DNA of 42,346 nt from Candidatus Pacearchaeota archaeon. GTDB lineage: Archaea > Nanobdellota > Nanobdellia > Pacearchaeales > GW2011-AR1. The first letter of the stretch is position 1, and every line of letters starts with the position of its first letter. Made by a program: the position numbers and the translations under genes. The notes under the pieces were generated by a model. The model saw only the letters and a list, made by a program, of their open reading frames with translations. It did not search any database and had not been told where the DNA came from. Location: assembly GCA_017609915.1 (NCBI GenBank), contig JAFCDA010000003.1, positions 1 to 42,346 of the forward strand. The letters are read 5' to 3'. Positions 9,786 through 31,122 of this stretch are shown here, piece by piece.

Positions 9786-10091
9786 ATGTTTAAAAATGGG
9801 TTGGTTGTTGAATTAAGTATGGTAAGTGGAGTTTATGTATTAGACGAAAAAGATAAATTTTGTTCTGATTTTAGAAGAAAATTTTTGATAGCTTCTGAAA
9901 CAAATAAGAATTATGAATTTGTTGACCAAATGGAGGCATTAATAGATGTTTATTATAATAGGGGGACTATGATTATAGTTAGTAATCGCGGGTTTTGCAT
10001 GGTTGGAAATGACAAAAAACGATTTGGTGTTATTCGTAATTATATAAAAAGAAAAACAAACGCTAATTTTACTATAATGAATTCAAAATGA
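9786..10091 (+). CDS. Unknown 101-aa protein translationally coupled to the thermosome
   Basis: I do not recognise the family. The ORF overlaps the thermosome start by 4 bp (ATGA), so it is probably translated on the same mRNA. The sequence looks alpha/beta: VVELSMVSGVYVLDEKDKFCSDFRRKFLIASE, RGTMIIVSNRGFCMVGNDKKRFGVIRNYIKRK. No membrane segment or metal motif is visible. Being first in the operon, it may be a chaperonin-linked factor; that rests on position only. Confidence 0.6.
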   Translation: MFKNGLVVELSMVSGVYVLDEKDKFCSDFRRKFLIASETNKNYEFVDQMEALIDVYYNRGTMIIVSNRGFCMVGNDKKRFGVIRNYIKRKTNANFTIMNSK

Positions 10092-11695
10092 CAGAAAAAC
10101 AACCAATTTTTATATTGCCTGAAAATACTGAAAGAACAATGGGCAAAGATGCTCAGAGAAATAATATTTTAGCTGCTAAGCTTGTTGCTGATGCTGTTAA
10201 AACTACCTTAGGGCCTAAAGGTATGGATAAGATGTTAGTTGATGCTATTGGAGATATTACTGTTACTAATGATGGAGTTACTATTTTAGATGAAATGCAA
10301 ATTGAGCATCCTGCTGCTAAAATGATGGTTGAGATTGCTAAAACTCAAGAAAGTGAGGTAGGAGATGGAACAACAACTGCTGTAATGCTTGCTGGAAAAT
10401 TGCTTGAAAATGCTGAGAAATTGTTGGATATGAAAATACATCCAACAGTTATAACAAAAGGTTATAATTTAGCTTCTGAAAAAGCAAAACAATTTTTAAA
10501 AGAATTAAGTGTTGAAACAACTCCTGATAAAGAAGATGTTTTAAAATATATTGCTATGACTGCTATGACTGGGAAAGGAGCAGAAAGTGTAAAAGAAAAA
10601 TTTTCAGAAATAATTGTTGAATCAATTAAGCAAGTACAGGAAAATGGAAATGTTAGTTTAGATAATATTAAGATTATAAAAAACAAGAGTAATGGTGTTG
10701 AAAATACAGAATTGATTAAAGGTATTGTTATTGATAAAGAAAGAGTTTCAATTGACATGCCTCAAAAAGTTCAAAGTGCAAAGATTGCTTTAATATCAGA
10801 TGCTTTAGAATTAAAAAATCCTGAAGCAGAAGCTAAAATTTCAGTCACTAATCCAGAACAACTTCAAGATTTTATTAATAGGGAAGAAGACACTTTGAAA
10901 AAGATTGTGGAAAAAGTTAAATCTTCTGGAGCAAATGTTATTTTTTGTCAAAAAGGGATTGATGATGTTGTTCAATATTATTTAGCTAAAGAAAATATTT
11001 ATGCTTGTAGAAGAGTTGCTAAATCAGATATAGAAAGTTTAGCTCGTGCTACTAGTGGTAAAATAATAAGTAATTTAAATGAATTAAATGAAAGAGAGCT
11101 AGGAAGGGCTCAAATAGTTGAGGAAATAAAACAAGGGGAAGAATCAATGACTTATGTTAGTGGTTGTGAAAATCCTAAGGCTTTAACTATTTTAATCCAT
11201 GGAGGAAGTGAACATATTATAGATGAAATGGAAAGAGCTTTAAAAGATGGTTTAGGAGATGTAGCTTCTGTTATTAAAAATAAAAGAATTGTTGCAGGTG
11301 CTGGAGCTATTGAAATCGAGCTTTCTAAAATGTTGAGGCAGTTTGCAAATACTCTTTCTGGAAGAGAGCAATTAGCTGTTCAAGAATTTGCAAGTGCTCT
11401 TGAATTTGTTCCATCAACATTAGCTGAAAATGCAGGTTTAGATCCTATTGATGTTTTAACTGGATTAAAATCAAGGCATGATAATGGGGAAAAATATGCA
11501 GGAATTAATATTTTGAAAAATAAGATTGAAAATTCTTTAGAAGAAGGCATTATTGAACCTATGAAAATTAAGATGCAGGCAATATCTTCTGCAACAGAAG
11601 TTGCTGTAATGATTCTTAGAATTGATGATGTTTTAGCTTCTAAAAGTGGTGGTTCACCTACAGGAACTGGAATGGGTTATCCAGGGATGGATTAA
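10088..11695 (+). CDS. Thermosome subunit (group II chaperonin)
   Basis: The 535-aa length and motifs are those of an archaeal chaperonin: [41 protein letters not shown] at the N-terminus, [12 protein letters not shown], the nucleotide-site [10 protein letters not shown] (about residues 92-101), and [12 protein letters not shown] in the C-terminal equatorial half. It ends in a Gly/Met-rich tail ([10 protein letters not shown]). It folds proteins in an ATP-driven double ring with a built-in lid. No second subunit gene is seen here, so whether the ring is homo-oligomeric cannot be decided. It lies in a tight operon, 4-bp overlap upstream and 1-bp gap downstream. Confidence 0.98.
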
Positions 11696-21674: not shown

Positions 21675-23486
21675 ATGGCTGATGAAAATCAAAAACAAGA
21701 TACTGGAATGAGTTTAGATGCCCAAAAATATCAGACAGAAGATATGACTTCAGGGCAAGTAAAAGTTCCTACTCAGGCTTCTGCAAAAGATGAAAAAGAA
21801 ATGAAGAAGATGAGAGAAAAACTTGAAAATTTGAAAAAATTTATTATAAATAAATATAAATTTACAAAAGCCATTGGAATTATTCCTCCTCAAGCAGCTG
21901 AAATATTTGATGAAGAAAATGAATTAAGTGAAGAGGAAAAAAAGCAAAAACCAATGCATTTGGTTGTTATTCTTCCTGATGATAAAGAAAAACAATTTAA
22001 TGAAATAAAAGGGATTCTTATTAAAAAAATTCAAGATGCAAAACAAAAGATTTGGTTGAATTTATTTTTAGAAAAAGATTTGTGGGAGATGTGCATAGAT
22101 AGTAAGTATAGTATTGTAGAAGCTATTGGAATGAGCTTTCCTTTACATGATAAAGGGCTTTTAGGCTCTTTAAGAGTAGCAGAAATTCACAAGTCATTAG
22201 TTTTAAGAAAATTTGAAAAATATATTTATTCATATGTTATATGGGGGAGTTTAGTAAGAGGAGATGCAGTTAAAACAAGTGATGTTGATGTGGCGATTAT
22301 AATTGATGATACTGATGTTAAAAGAATGCCTCGTATTGAATTAAAAGAAAAATTAAGAAATATTATTTATTCTTATATTATGCAAGCAGGAGAACTTGCT
22401 GGTGTTAAGAACATATTAAATGTTCAAGTATGGTTATTAACAGAGTTTTGGGAAGGAATTAAAGATGCTAATCCTGTATTTTATGGTTCTTTAAGAGATG
22501 GTGTTCCATTATATGATAGGGGAGGATTTTTACCATGGAAATTATTATTAAAAATGGGAAAAATTAAACCATCTCCTGAGGCTATTGATGGTTATATGAG
22601 TGTTGGAGAGAAAACACAAGAAATAGCTAAAAGAAAATTATTAGATATTGTAATGAGTGATATTTTTTATGGAGTTTCTATGCCTACTCAGGGGATTTTA
22701 ATGCTATATGGATTACCTCCTACAAATATTCCAGAAACTGTTAAGGAGTTTAAAAGAATTTTTGTTGACAAAGAAAAATTAGTTGAGAAAAAATATGCAG
22801 ATATTTTAGAAGAAATTATGATTACATATTATAAAGGATATGAACATGAAAAGATCAAAGAAGTTTCTGGGAAAGATATTGATAAATTATTAAAAAATTC
22901 TGAAGCATATTTGAAAAGACTAAAAGAATTAAGAATTGAAATTGAAAAAACAATGGTTAAGAAAACTTTTTCAGAGATTTATACTAATGTGTTTAAGATT
23001 ATGAAAGCTTTGTTTGGAAATAAATCAGAAATCCAATTAATTAAGCAATATGAAAAAGAGATTGTAAATAAAGGGCAAGGAAATCCTAAATTCTTACATA
23101 CCTTAAATGAATTAATTAGTGTGAAAAAGAAATATAAAAGTAAAAAAGCCCCAAGTGCTTATGTTTTTGAAACATTAAGAAAAGAATGTATTTATTTGAT
23201 TGATAGTTTAGTTGAGTATGGGCAAAGAAAAGATTTGGGTTTGATTGAAAGAGCAAAAGTTGTTTTAACATTTAAAGGAAAACATGCTGAATTGTTTTTA
23301 ACAAAACCGGCGTTTTTAATTCAAGAAAATAAAATAAGAAAAATTGAAGGGGAAAAGATTAAAGCTTCTGATATGAATGAGTTTAATCAGATTATAAGTA
23401 AGTTTAAAGGAAAAAGAATTAAGATTGATAATAAAATGTTAGAAGTTTTAGAAAAAGAGTTTGGAGAGTTTGATGTTAATTTGTAA
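21675..23486 (+). CDS. Nucleotidyltransferase-HEPN-type large protein (603 aa)
   Basis: Residues about 185-240 hold a minimal nucleotidyltransferase core: WGSLVRGDAVKTSDVDVAII, with G191-S192 and the metal Asp pair D203/D205. Residues about 290-440 are helical and collinear with the HEPN-like half of the second NTase protein at 36563 (shared GGFxxxKxLLxxGKIKxxPEA and the following helices). Another helical part and a small beta end (KIKASDMNEFNQIISKFKGKRIKI) follow, with about 180 unplaced N-terminal residues. MNT/HEPN proteins often work as toxin-antitoxin or in defence, but the size and single-gene setting leave the role open. A TATA-like GATTTAAAAAGGG lies about 25 bp upstream. Confidence 0.75.
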   Translation: MADENQKQDTGMSLDAQKYQTEDMTSGQVKVPTQASAKDEKEMKKMREKLENLKKFIINKYKFTKAIGIIPPQAAEIFDEENELSEEEKKQKPMHLVVILPDDKEKQFNEIKGILIKKIQDAKQKIWLNLFLEKDLWEMCIDSKYSIVEAIGMSFPLHDKGLLGSLRVAEIHKSLVLRKFEKYIYSYVIWGSLVRGDAVKTSDVDVAIIIDDTDVKRMPRIELKEKLRNIIYSYIMQAGELAGVKNILNVQVWLLTEFWEGIKDANPVFYGSLRDGVPLYDRGGFLPWKLLLKMGKIKPSPEAIDGYMSVGEKTQEIAKRKLLDIVMSDIFYGVSMPTQGILMLYGLPPTNIPETVKEFKRIFVDKEKLVEKKYADILEEIMITYYKGYEHEKIKEVSGKDIDKLLKNSEAYLKRLKELRIEIEKTMVKKTFSEIYTNVFKIMKALFGNKSEIQLIKQYEKEIVNKGQGNPKFLHTLNELISVKKKYKSKKAPSAYVFETLRKECIYLIDSLVEYGQRKDLGLIERAKVVLTFKGKHAELFLTKPAFLIQENKIRKIEGEKIKASDMNEFNQIISKFKGKRIKIDNKMLEVLEKEFGEFDVNL

Positions 23487-23518
23487 ATCCTTATAAACAA
23501 TAATTATTTCTACATATT

Positions 23519-23968
23519 ATGGATTTAATAAAAGAGTTGTTAAAAAATACTTATTTATTAAGATTAGATAAAATAGAAGAGATAATTGAGAGAATTTGGG
23601 AAGAATATCAGTTAATTCTTGATGATGCTAATGATATAGAAAAGTTATGGGAAGCAAGAGTATATCTTTATTTTGTTGGTTGGTTTTATCCTGAAAAATT
23701 TGGAATAGAAGCTATAGACAGAAGATTAAAACATCTGGAAAACCCTATATCTTTAGTAGAGTTCTTAGATATGATTGATAAAGAAAAAATTGATTTAAAA
23801 CAAAAAGAAGATTTACTTTTTGTTAAATTAGAAAGATTATATAGATTAATAAAAAAATACAAACAATTGATTATAAATAATAGTTATTTAGATGAACAAA
23901 GATTTAATCAAAAGGAAAAAGAGCTTATAGGTGATAAAACTTATAGGGATATATCTTTGGGTTTCTAA
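23519..23968 (+). CDS. Helical protein of unknown function (149 aa)
   Basis: The product is all helical, rich in Glu, Lys and Leu, with IEEIIERIWEEYQLILDDANDIEKLWEARVYLYFVGWFYPEKFG as the most distinctive part. No family is recognised. It lies 32 bp after the NTase-HEPN gene and may be its operon partner; a small helical neighbour would fit a regulatory or antitoxin role, but nothing in the sequence proves it. Confidence 0.55.
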   Translation: MDLIKELLKNTYLLRLDKIEEIIERIWEEYQLILDDANDIEKLWEARVYLYFVGWFYPEKFGIEAIDRRLKHLENPISLVEFLDMIDKEKIDLKQKEDLLFVKLERLYRLIKKYKQLIINNSYLDEQRFNQKEKELIGDKTYRDISLGF

Positions 23969-24019
23969 CATATTTCTATCACCCAAAGAGTTTTAAATCC
24001 CTTTTTTATTAATTTTTTA

Positions 24020-24663
24020 ATGGTTAGAAAAAGTCAGAAAAGGAAAAAATCATTGGATTCTAGCAAAACTGGTAAAAAGAACTCTGGGGAACAAGGACAA
24101 AATGTGCATGTAAATAAATATGCTTCAGATCAAAAGCTTGATAAAGGAGGTATAAAAAGAACTATTTCAGTTGGAAAAAAACAGCGAAGAAGAGGTCAAA
24201 AGAAAAAAATGTTGTTGTTATTAAAACGTCTGATTCTGAACTTGATCTTGGGACTTATGCTTTTCCTACAGGTTCTAGAAGGAAATATAGAACTTCTGGG
24301 AGGGATAAATATGTAACTATAACTTCTCGGTCTGGAAGAACATTGGAAGATGTAGATTTTAGAGGTTCTCCTGATTATATCTCTCCTTATTCAAGGGAAA
24401 CTACTTCTTTAGAAGGGGATGATGAACCTATGTTTAGTTTTGAAAAAGAGTCTGAAGGTTATATGGTTTCTTCGAATAATGGCAGCAGTATTATAAAATC
24501 TGTTTTTTGTGAAGAAGATTTTAAAGGAATTATGATTTTTACAAGAGATGGAGGTGTTTATAATTCGTTAAACCAAGTTAAAGAGTATTATTTTGATGAG
24601 CCTAGAAAAATAATCGATGAGATTGAAGCTATTAAAGAGGTTATTGCAAGAGGGAAACTTTAA
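24020..24663 (+). pseudogene. Frameshifted gene (-1 shift near an A-run), basic N-terminal part and unknown C-terminal domain
   Basis: The frame from the ATG at 24020 is Lys/Arg-rich and runs to 24316. After about 24210 its translation turns into implausible Leu-rich residues, while the -1 frame reads sensibly: KNVVVIKTSDSELDLGTYAF, PTGSRRKYRTSGRDKYVTIT, SRSGRTLEDVDF, joining the second ORF (annotatable from TTG at 24343) through to 24663. The -1 frame is closed upstream by TGA at 24139 and TAA at 24142, so the shift must fall between 24145 and about 24210. That interval has A-runs at 24175-24181 and 24203-24209. The first is a correctly phased A AAA AAA slippery heptamer (zero frame GGA AAA AAA CAG). 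The join would give about 214 aa. It could be a sequencing error, a broken gene or programmed frameshifting. Confidence 0.65.
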
Positions 24664-24694
24664 AAACCTGATTTTTCTTTGAATTTTAATAATC

Positions 24695-24760
24695 AATATA
24701 GTATCTTTATAAGCATAGAGATTTTGATTATCTGAATAGTTTAAGAGAACAGAAGAGTAT
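24695..24760. repeat. Dispersed element, half copy 14
   Basis: ATAGTATCTTTATAAGCATAGAG, then GATTATCTGAATAGTTTAAG. This is a degenerate left half, starting about 30 bp after the frameshifted gene. Confidence 0.4.
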
Positions 24761-24796
24761 AACTTGAAGACACATAAAATATAGATAAAACAAATA

Positions 24797-24885
24797 AATA
24801 TCTTATAAGCATAGGAAGAGATGCTCTACTGAGATTAAGATGATGAAACTCAGATAATTTCACTCTTATGAGCTTATAGAGATTC
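24797..24885. repeat. Dispersed element, copy 15 (reverse orientation)
   Basis: It begins AATATCTTATAAGCATAGG and has an internal hairpin CTGAG...CTCAG around GATTAAGATGATGAA. It ends GAGCTTATAGAGATT, 22 bp before the eL33 start codon; the TATAG end may serve as a promoter. Bases 24761-24796 are A-rich with no further signal. Confidence 0.5.
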
Positions 24886-24906
24886 CAAATAAATAATAAA
24901 ACAAAC

Positions 24907-25158
24907 ATGGCAAAAATTGTACAATTTCGTAGAGGATTAAAAAGGATCCATGAAAAACATTATATTATAGATGTAGATGTAAAATCAAGAGAAGAAGCTA
25001 GTAAATTTGTTGGTAAAGAAGTTACTTGGACATCTCCTGCTGGAAAAAAGATTAAAGGTAAAATAAGTTCTGCTCATGGTAATAAAGGAATGGTCAGAGC
25101 AATTTTTGAAAAAGGATTACCAGGACAAGCAAGAAATGATGAGGTTGAAGTAAAATGA
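24907..25158 (+). CDS. rpl35ae: Ribosomal protein eL33 (L35Ae)
   Basis: The 83-aa protein contains the family core GKEVTWTSPAGKKIKGKISSAHGNKGMVRAIFEKGLPGQA, the HGNKG-x-VRAxFxKxLPGQA signature of eL33. It is a large-subunit ribosomal protein found only in archaea and eukaryotes. The gene overlaps the next ORF by 4 bp (ATGA) and follows a repeat element. Confidence 0.95.
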   Translation: MAKIVQFRRGLKRIHEKHYIIDVDVKSREEASKFVGKEVTWTSPAGKKIKGKISSAHGNKGMVRAIFEKGLPGQARNDEVEVK

Positions 25159-27819: not shown

Positions 27820-30800
27820 ATGGTGATGAGAAAAAAAGAGAGGAAAACTGACTTCTCAGAGAAGTATATTCGGTGGTTTTCTCAATTAAATAACAAAGAT
27901 GTTCCACTTGTAGGTGGGAAAGGGGCAAGTTTATCTGAGATGTATAATAACAAATTTCCTGTTCCTCCTGGATATATGGTGACTTCTAAAGCTTTTGACT
28001 TTTTTTTAGAAAAAGAAAAATTAAAACCAGCAATTTCTGAGATTTTAAGTGTTGTTGATTTAGAAGATACAGAAGCATTAGAAAATGCATCTAAGAAAAT
28101 TAGGATGTTGATGGAAAGTAAAGAACTTCCTAAAGAACTTGAAGATGAAATTATTGAGTCATATCACTTCTTAAGTTCAGAAGAACTTAATGAAGAAGAA
28201 ATTTCTAAAGATGCTTTAAATATTTTAAGAAATGCACAAGAACCTATTTTTGTTTCTGTTCGTTCAAGTGCAACAACAGAAGATTTAGCTACTGCAAGTT
28301 TTGCAGGACAACAAGATAGTTTTCTTAATATTAAAGGAAGCGATAATTTAATTGAGCATATTAAAAAATGTTTTTCTTCTCTTTATACTTCAAGAGCAAT
28401 TTATTATAGAAATAAAAAAGGATTTAAAGAAGGAGAATCATTACTTGCAGTAGTTGTTCAAAAAATGGTTGATTCTGAAAAATCAGGGGTTGTGTTTTCT
28501 AGAAATCCTATGGACTTAAGTGAAGATATTATTATTGAAGCTGTTTTTGGATTAGGTGAAGGGATTGTTAGTGGAAGAATTCACCCAGATAATCATGTTG
28601 TTTCAAGAGATTTAAAAATTAAAAAAACTAAAGTTAGTGATAAGAAAATTGCTGTTGTTAGAAAAAGTAGTGGAAAAAATGCAGTTGTTGAATTAAGTCC
28701 TACGAAAAGTAAAGCCCAAGTTTTGACTAATGGGGAGGTTTTAGAGCTTGCTGATTATGCTATAAAACTTGAAAATCATTATAAAAAACCTCAAGATATT
28801 GAGTTTGCAATTGAAGAAAAAAAAGTTTATATTGTTCAGTCAAGGCCAATTACAACCCTTGATATAAAAGAGCAGATTGGAGAGATTACTGGAAAACCAA
28901 TTTTAGAAGGATTAGGTGCAAGTCCTGGAGTAGGAGTAGGGGTTGTAAAAATAATTGAAAATATTTCTGATTTACCTAAGATTAAGAAAGGAGATGTTTT
29001 AGTAACAAAAATGACTAATCCTGATATGGTAGTTAGTATGCAAAAATCAGTTGCAATTGTAACTGATGAAGGAGGAATGACTGCTCATGCGTCTATTGTT
29101 AGCAGAGAAATGGGTATTCCTGCAGTTGTTGGAACAAGACAAGCAACATCTTTATTAAAAGATGGAATGAAGATTACTGTTGATGGTTCAACAGGAAGAG
29201 TATTTGAAGGAGAAGTTGCTAAAACTTCTCAAGTAGAAATCAAACCTGCTGTTAAAACTCATAAAATTAAACTAAAAGTTATTGTTGATTTACCAGAATT
29301 TGCTGAAAGAGCAGCTGAATCTGAAGTTGAGCATATTGGTTTAACTAGGATAGAAGGAATGATTACAGAGTCTGGAAAACATCCTTTGCTTTTTGAAAAA
29401 CAAGATGAATTACATGAATATACAGAAATTTTGAAAAAAGGAATTACAAAACTTGTAGCACCTTTTGAATCTATTTGGATAAGAGCAAGTGATATTAGAA
29501 CAGATGAATTTAGTACATTAAAAGGAGCTCCTGAAAAAGAGATTAATCCAATGTTAGGTTTACATGGGATTAGATTTAGTTTAAAACACCCTAAAATATT
29601 ACAAGCAGAATTATTAGCTATTAAACAAGTTGCTGAGAAAAACACTGATAAAAAGTTTGGGATTATGTTTCCTCAGATTATTTCTATTGAAGAAGTTAAA
29701 AAAGCAAAAGAATATTTTAATGAAATCAAGACACATAATATGGAATTTGGAGTTATGATTGAAACTCCGGCAAGTGTTCAAATTATTGATGATATTTGCC
29801 CTTTGGTTGATTTTATTTCTTTTGGAACAAATGATTTAACTCAATATACTTTAGCTGTTGATAGAGGAGAAGACTTGGTCCAACATTTATATGATGAAAT
29901 ACATCCTGCTATTTTTTCTCAAATTGAAAAAGTTCTTGATTCTTGTAAAAAAAATAAAACAGAATCAAGTATTTGCGGACAAGCAGGAAGTAATAAGGAA
30001 ATGGTTGAATTTTTAATTAAAAAAGGAATTGATTCAATTTCTGTTAATGCAGATGCTGCTTATGAGATTTCTAATTTAATCAATCAAATGGAAGATTCTT
30101 ATAAGGTTTCAGAACCTGGAATAAAACAAGAAGAAGAAAGAATTGAAAAAAAGATAGAAGAAATAGATGAACCAAGAGAGGAGCCGAGAGTAGAACAAAG
30201 AATTGAAGAACCTAGTGTAGAACAAAGAGTAGAGCCAAAGCAGATAATAGAACCACAAGTAAATGATGAGTTTAAGATTCCTGAAGAAGATTGGAAAAGA
30301 TTGACTAGAAAAGAAAAAAGAAGATTTTTAAGAAAATTAAAGAAAAAGAAAAAAAAGCAAGAAAGACAACAAGCTATGGAACAAAAAGAACTAGTAGAAC
30401 CAGAAGAACAAAAATCAACCACAGAAGATCAAAACTTAACTGAGAATAAAGATATTGAGAAAAATAATATAGAAAATAAATCTCAACTCCCTCATCTTCC
30501 TAAACAAGATATTATTGATAGGCAAGATGTTGAAGATATTAAAGAAGATTATGAAGATAAACTTTTAGAAAATGTGCAAATTCCTGCTGAGATTGAAGAA
30601 CCAAAAGAACTTGAAAAAACAGAAGATTTACAAGAAAATATTGGAGCAGTTAAACCTTTTGATAGTCTTGATAGAATTGAAGATAAAGTCGAAGATATTA
30701 AGCAAGATGTTGAAGAAACTAAATTAGAAGAAATGCAAGAAAATAGGGAGATTGAGCAAAATATTGAAGCTGAAAGATTTGACTCTGAATCAAATCTTGA

Positions 30801-31122
30801 TAATATTGAAGAAGGAAGAGATAGGCAAGAACCTCAGGAAACACAAGAAGTACAAAAACCTGAAGAGCAAAACTTAACTGAGAATAAAGATATTGAGGAA
30901 AATATCAATAATATTAAACAAGAAAAAAGTATGGAAGAGAAGAGTGGAGGAATAGGGGATAAAGAGATAGAGGAAAATGATATAGACCAAGGGATAAGTG
31001 GGAAACCTGCAGTCCCAGAATCCATAGGGGTTTATAATCCTAATAATGAAGAAGATAATTCTCCTCAAAAAATGGAATATAGATTTGATGATGATGAGGA
31101 TATTTATAGTGATGTTTTTTAG
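27820..31122 (+). CDS. ppsA: Phosphoenolpyruvate synthase with a long acidic C-terminal extension
   Basis: Residues 1-757 are a full PEP synthase, making PEP from pyruvate and ATP. The ATP-grasp half has VGGKGASLSEM, SFAGQQDSFLNI, VFGLGEGIVSG and VQSRPITT. The swivelling domain has GGMTAHASIVSREMGIPAVVG with catalytic His423. The PEP-binding TIM barrel has MIETPASVQIIDDI, ISFGTNDLTQYTLAVDRG and the catalytic Cys719 in CGQAGS. Beyond about residue 760 an extra 340 residues follow, rich in Glu, Lys and Gln and apparently disordered, with a strongly basic patch (LTRKEKRRFLRKLKKKKKK, about 827-845) and repeated NLTENKDIE phrases. Known archaeal enzymes end near residue 760-820. The frame is uninterrupted through the tail. 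Confidence 0.95.
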   Translation: MVMRKKERKTDFSEKYIRWFSQLNNKDVPLVGGKGASLSEMYNNKFPVPPGYMVTSKAFDFFLEKEKLKPAISEILSVVDLEDTEALENASKKIRMLMESKELPKELEDEIIESYHFLSSEELNEEEISKDALNILRNAQEPIFVSVRSSATTEDLATASFAGQQDSFLNIKGSDNLIEHIKKCFSSLYTSRAIYYRNKKGFKEGESLLAVVVQKMVDSEKSGVVFSRNPMDLSEDIIIEAVFGLGEGIVSGRIHPDNHVVSRDLKIKKTKVSDKKIAVVRKSSGKNAVVELSPTKSKAQVLTNGEVLELADYAIKLENHYKKPQDIEFAIEEKKVYIVQSRPITTLDIKEQIGEITGKPILEGLGASPGVGVGVVKIIENISDLPKIKKGDVLVTKMTNPDMVVSMQKSVAIVTDEGGMTAHASIVSREMGIPAVVGTRQATSLLKDGMKITVDGSTGRVFEGEVAKTSQVEIKPAVKTHKIKLKVIVDLPEFAERAAESEVEHIGLTRIEGMITESGKHPLLFEKQDELHEYTEILKKGITKLVAPFESIWIRASDIRTDEFSTLKGAPEKEINPMLGLHGIRFSLKHPKILQAELLAIKQVAEKNTDKKFGIMFPQIISIEEVKKAKEYFNEIKTHNMEFGVMIETPASVQIIDDICPLVDFISFGTNDLTQYTLAVDRGEDLVQHLYDEIHPAIFSQIEKVLDSCKKNKTESSICGQAGSNKEMVEFLIKKGIDSISVNADAAYEISNLINQMEDSYKVSEPGIKQEEERIEKKIEEIDEPREEPRVEQRIEEPSVEQRVEPKQIIEPQVNDEFKIPEEDWKRLTRKEKRRFLRKLKKKKKKQERQQAMEQKELVEPEEQKSTTEDQNLTENKDIEKNNIENKSQLPHLPKQDIIDRQDVEDIKEDYEDKLLENVQIPAEIEEPKELEKTEDLQENIGAVKPFDSLDRIEDKVEDIKQDVEETKLEEMQENREIEQNIEAERFDSESNLDNIEEGRDRQEPQETQEVQKPEEQNLTENKDIEENINNIKQEKSMEEKSGGIGDKEIEENDIDQGISGKPAVPESIGVYNPNNEEDNSPQKMEYRFDDDEDIYSDVF
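31102..31122 (+). repeat. 21-bp direct repeat, left copy
   Basis: The sequence ATTTATAGTGATG followed by TTTTTTAG forms the last codons and stop of the ppsA gene. The identical 21 bp recur at 31732-31752, just past the MazF-type gene, so the two copies bracket the toxin-antitoxin module. Confidence 0.85.

Follow-up and report, generated by a model that had tools for sequence, protein, structure and literature searches.

Programmed −1 ribosomal frameshifting has been described in Archaea for the alpha-L-fucosidase gene fucA1 of Sulfolobus solfataricus (PMC8211752). Frameshifts in homopolymeric A/T tracts are known from the AT-rich genomes of the symbionts Blochmannia and Buchnera (PMC3017870). 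Here, we analysed a gene that shares features with both. It lies at 24020-24663 on the plus strand of a 42,346-nucleotide stretch of DNA (hereafter the window) from a Candidatus Pacearchaeota archaeon. Like fucA1 (PMC8211752), it consists of two ORFs, of which the downstream one is read in the −1 frame, and an A-rich heptamer lies where they overlap. Yet fucA1 combines rare codons and a putative stem-loop with full-length relatives and evidence at the protein level (PMC8211752), a set of features with no counterpart found here. Like the symbiont genes (PMC3017870), our gene belongs to a reduced, AT-rich genome and is open apart from a poly-A run that would differ in length by a single base. 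Unlike them, it is a non-conserved orphan, its tracts are just A7, and any corrected transcript would be hypothetical.

The window is one contig of a 521-kb genome in 27 contigs, which is 65% complete and has 28% GC. It encodes L35Ae and L10e-type ribosomal proteins (Pfam) and has leaderless starts with TATA-like boxes. From its translation, we take the ORF at 10088-11695 to be a thermosome-like gene. Together, these features mark the host as archaeal. The ORF at 27820-31122 resembles phosphoenolpyruvate synthase and carries a Glu/Lys-rich C-terminal extension of ~330 residues.

The coding signal of the 24020-24663 gene changes frame in its first third. The zero-frame ORF (24020-24316, plus strand) begins at ATG 24020 with MVRKSQKRKK...TISVGKKQRRRGQKKKMLLLL... 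and ends with the stop at 24314-24316. A TATA-like element, TTTTAAAT, lies ~28 nt 5' of this ATG, as it does at the window's other leaderless-looking starts. The −1 frame of the same strand is open from 24145 to its stop at 24661-24663, and its nearest upstream stops, TGA at 24139 and TAA at 24142, are those that the first-pass annotation had given as the upstream bounds of the site. That annotation also held that the zero frame reads well up to the A-run area (24175-24209) and that the −1 frame then gives a sensible protein through 24663. Codon log-odds bear this out. In the zero frame, 24020-24174 scores +23 bits; this is a stop-free, basic and Ser/Lys-rich N-terminal part of 51-52 residues, after which the signal is lost. 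In the −1 frame, 24210-24660 scores +67 bits. The C-terminal part (24210-24663) is an orphan of 150 codons and a stop, and the absence of internal stops means that no decay is seen in it. Past the best switch point, the zero-frame tail (24182-24316) has a codon score of about −17 bits and is probably non-coding. The −1 frame has no ATG, GTG or TTG before TTG 24343, by which point it has accumulated ~20 bits of coding signal. The switch of frame exceeds chance. Since the codon signals swap frame and the second part lacks a start, we infer that 24020-24174 and 24210-24663 were most likely once a single gene, which is now broken. The AlphaFold model of the C-terminal part, a beta-sheet and a helix, is of low confidence (mean pLDDT 54, with residues 81-150 at 66-72). 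With this low-confidence model as query, the best Foldseek match, to a polo-box-like fold, was not significant (E 0.08) and was rejected.

Where exactly the frame changes is less sharply defined. A model with a single switch places at least 95% of the posterior within 24169-24212. The first A7 run, the phased A AAA AAA heptamer at 24175-24181, receives 0.35; the seven codons between the runs (24182-24202), where all three frames are open, receive 0.43; and the second A7 run (24203-24209), whose zero-frame phasing is not X XXY YYZ, receives 0.18. Since the posterior is spread over both runs and the codons between them, the heptamer is one among several possible shift sites. In the stretch between the runs codon use slightly prefers the third frame (SEEEVK), and a two-step path through it has a codon-use likelihood ratio of ~14.5 over the single switch, a figure to which no prior penalty for the extra event has been applied. 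The heptamer is correctly phased, as had been proposed, the zero frame reading GGA AAA AAA CAG at 24173-24184. Its description as a "textbook" slippery motif has to be given up: the same phasing occurs at 30 of the 57 runs of A7 or longer in intact ORFs of the window, and hence is not beyond chance. In 225 kb of ORFs from the same assembly, phased A_AAA_AAA is found at 200 of 414 such runs and GGA_AAA_AAA occurs in frame 12 times. The motif is thus not special in the host genome. This calls for caution: when a genome of 28% GC has phased A AAA AAA at about half of its genic A7+ runs, the heptamer is so common that its coincidence with a frame break says little in favour of recoding.

The first-pass annotation left three readings side by side: a base missing from the assembly, a broken gene, or a −1 shift of the ribosome. 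The first two fit our results; the third fares worse. A ribosome shifting at A AAA AAA would make a 214-aa fusion alongside the 98-aa zero-frame product, and this would be in line with the phase of the heptamer, with the AGGAGG upstream of it (24145-24150) and with the −1 shift at an A-rich heptamer in Sulfolobus fucA1 (PMC8211752). Yet the heptamer is commonplace among intact ORFs of the assembly, and the downstream stimulatory structure that had been suggested as a check, and which would be expected 5-9 nt from the heptamer, was sought in vain. Pseudoknot-free folds starting at 24182, 24187 and 24210 were no better than those of shuffled sequences (z of 0.21, 0.74 and 0.05, respectively), and there is no Rfam match. 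In dnaX, the SD-like stimulator lies ~10-14 nt from the heptamer. Here, AGGAGG ends 24 nt before it, too far for a stimulator of this kind, and SD-like 4-mers are found at just 4 of the 35 starts in the window. Furthermore, the switch is not localised to the heptamer, the zero-frame tail looks non-coding, and no relative carrying a conserved two-frame layout was found in the collections searched. For this reading, as for the transcriptional correction discussed below, the motif is the one positive argument, and we regard programmed frameshifting as very unlikely. We give the least credence to two separate genes, in which case 24020-24316 would encode a short, basic protein ending in a hydrophobic tail and the other gene would start at a non-canonical codon around 24178-24220 or at TTG 24343. 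The 98-aa ORF does come with an ATG and a TATA-like box of its own, and TATAAAAA is present at 24151-24158, but so much −1-frame coding signal ahead of the first possible canonical start, together with the negative score of the zero-frame tail, is at odds with such an arrangement.

The gene is not the only broken one. Across 278 kb of the assembly we counted roughly twelve further frame breaks, most of them not at A-runs. Headless frame breaks in the same survey number 9 in 278 kb of the assembly (this gene included) versus 1 in 336 kb of relatives, a rough comparison since the sampled contigs differ in gene content and some of the 9 calls may be false. Among the relatives, G010 has 1 in 152 kb, G017 has 0 in 103 kb and the other loci of the genus have 0 in 81 kb. 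Among the clear calls, the break at ~15530 of L064 is an 11-base tandem duplication, and at ~7356 and ~8060 of L068 small indels break LamG-like surface genes, the latter at a non-homopolymer site; all of these are small indels in large surface-type genes, and none is at an A-run. Visual inspection of L050, L051 and L053 gave three more breaks at A-runs. The one in L050 (G000:C2, ~3630, minus strand) falls at GGA AAA AAA, the identical motif, and the homologue in G014, a genome of the genus, is one uninterrupted frame of ~300 aa. In L051 (G000:C3, ~12064, minus strand) a short gene that would bear a Tat-like RRNFLK signal is broken at A9, and in L053 (G000:C5, ~14763) a short gene that would encode a CxxC zinc-binding-like protein is broken at A8. 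We found no breaks in conserved genes by tblastn (at least 40% identity), either in the assembly or in the relatives, so errors are not a general feature of the assembly. Likewise, all 112 A/T7+ runs lying deep within conserved genes are intact, which shows that the breaks fall in accessory genes and fits relaxed selection.

These breaks bear on the possibility that a real indel in an A-run is partly corrected by slippage of the RNA polymerase, as in Buchnera and Blochmannia, so that some transcripts would be full length. An AT-rich genome of 28% GC with dense A-runs, the further breaks at A-runs and the Blochmannia precedent (PMC3017870) would all favour such correction. Yet many other breaks of the assembly are away from A-runs, and the genes that are hit are orphan or surface-type, none being of an essential type. 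A7 is also a short tract for transcriptional slippage; the tracts counted in Blochmannia were reportedly of 9 or more. We think such correction very unlikely, and equally so that this lineage tolerates breaks at A-runs because its RNA polymerase or its ribosome slips on short ones often enough to restore full-length products. If it did, a phenomenon of symbionts would extend to Archaea, as a counterpart of Blochmannia.

By far the most probable explanation is that the sequence of an orphan accessory gene has an accidental indel at its A-runs or close to them. The two ORFs would then be one lineage-specific accessory gene of ~214 codons, in which a single base may have been accidentally gained or lost, once or twice, within the two A7 runs (28 nt apart) or in the stretch separating them. 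We infer an accidental cause because the coding signal changes frame exactly across the A-runs, because the second part lacks a canonical start and because unprogrammed frame breaks occur elsewhere in the same assembly. The chromosome might have mutated recently, in which case a pseudogene or a truncated product of 98 aa would remain; alternatively, an A might be miscounted in the consensus sequence. We consider natural mutation and consensus error about equally likely. Without a stop in 150 codons of the −1 frame, a natural break must be recent. What counts against an indel is that 0 of the 112 runs in conserved genes are broken, which holds homopolymer miscalls to at most a few percent per run; an error rate of ~1% per run would still be compatible with this count.

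The gene lies in a slot (23487-24906) between a conserved nucleotidyltransferase-domain gene (21675-23486, plus strand; Pfam PF18765/PF01909), for which most genomes of the genus have an orthologue (65-87% identity), and rpl35ae (24907-25158, plus strand; Pfam PF01247, E 1e-15). In relatives, rpl35ae comes after the nucleotidyltransferase gene, and the latter is syntenic with rpl35ae/L10e across the genus. Across the loci compared (L031-L043), the slot varies from 0.2 to 3.5 kb, and its small genes, among them ORFs of methyltransferase-like and small membrane type, differ from genome to genome and are unrelated; in G017, the most similar genome at the flanks, it is empty. An adjoining 149-aa ORF in the slot (23519-23968, plus strand) is also an orphan, with 0 matches in 17 other genomes of the genus. 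As to the broken gene, a single-frame version was sought among relatives, as the first-pass annotation had suggested, with the C-terminal part and the X-masked read-through as queries. No real relative was found in 181 genomes of the family, 200 genomes of the order, GTDB contigs, viral contigs, phages, plasmids, Pfam, PHROGs or PDB. The best weak match (G058, E ~5e-4) lies on the strand opposite an RNA polymerase beta-like ORF and is interrupted by stops, and we attribute it to chance. Given the syntenic flanks, the genome-specific contents and the empty slot of G017, the broken gene and its 149-aa neighbour are probably lineage-specific cargo of a hypervariable slot, where selection against breakage may be weak. 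The nucleotidyltransferase gene of G017 is itself split (L042, G017:C64, ~6715). We considered an event at an A-run as the cause and discarded it, the split being instead a larger deletion, of a length of ~25-30 codons, that also shifts the frame.
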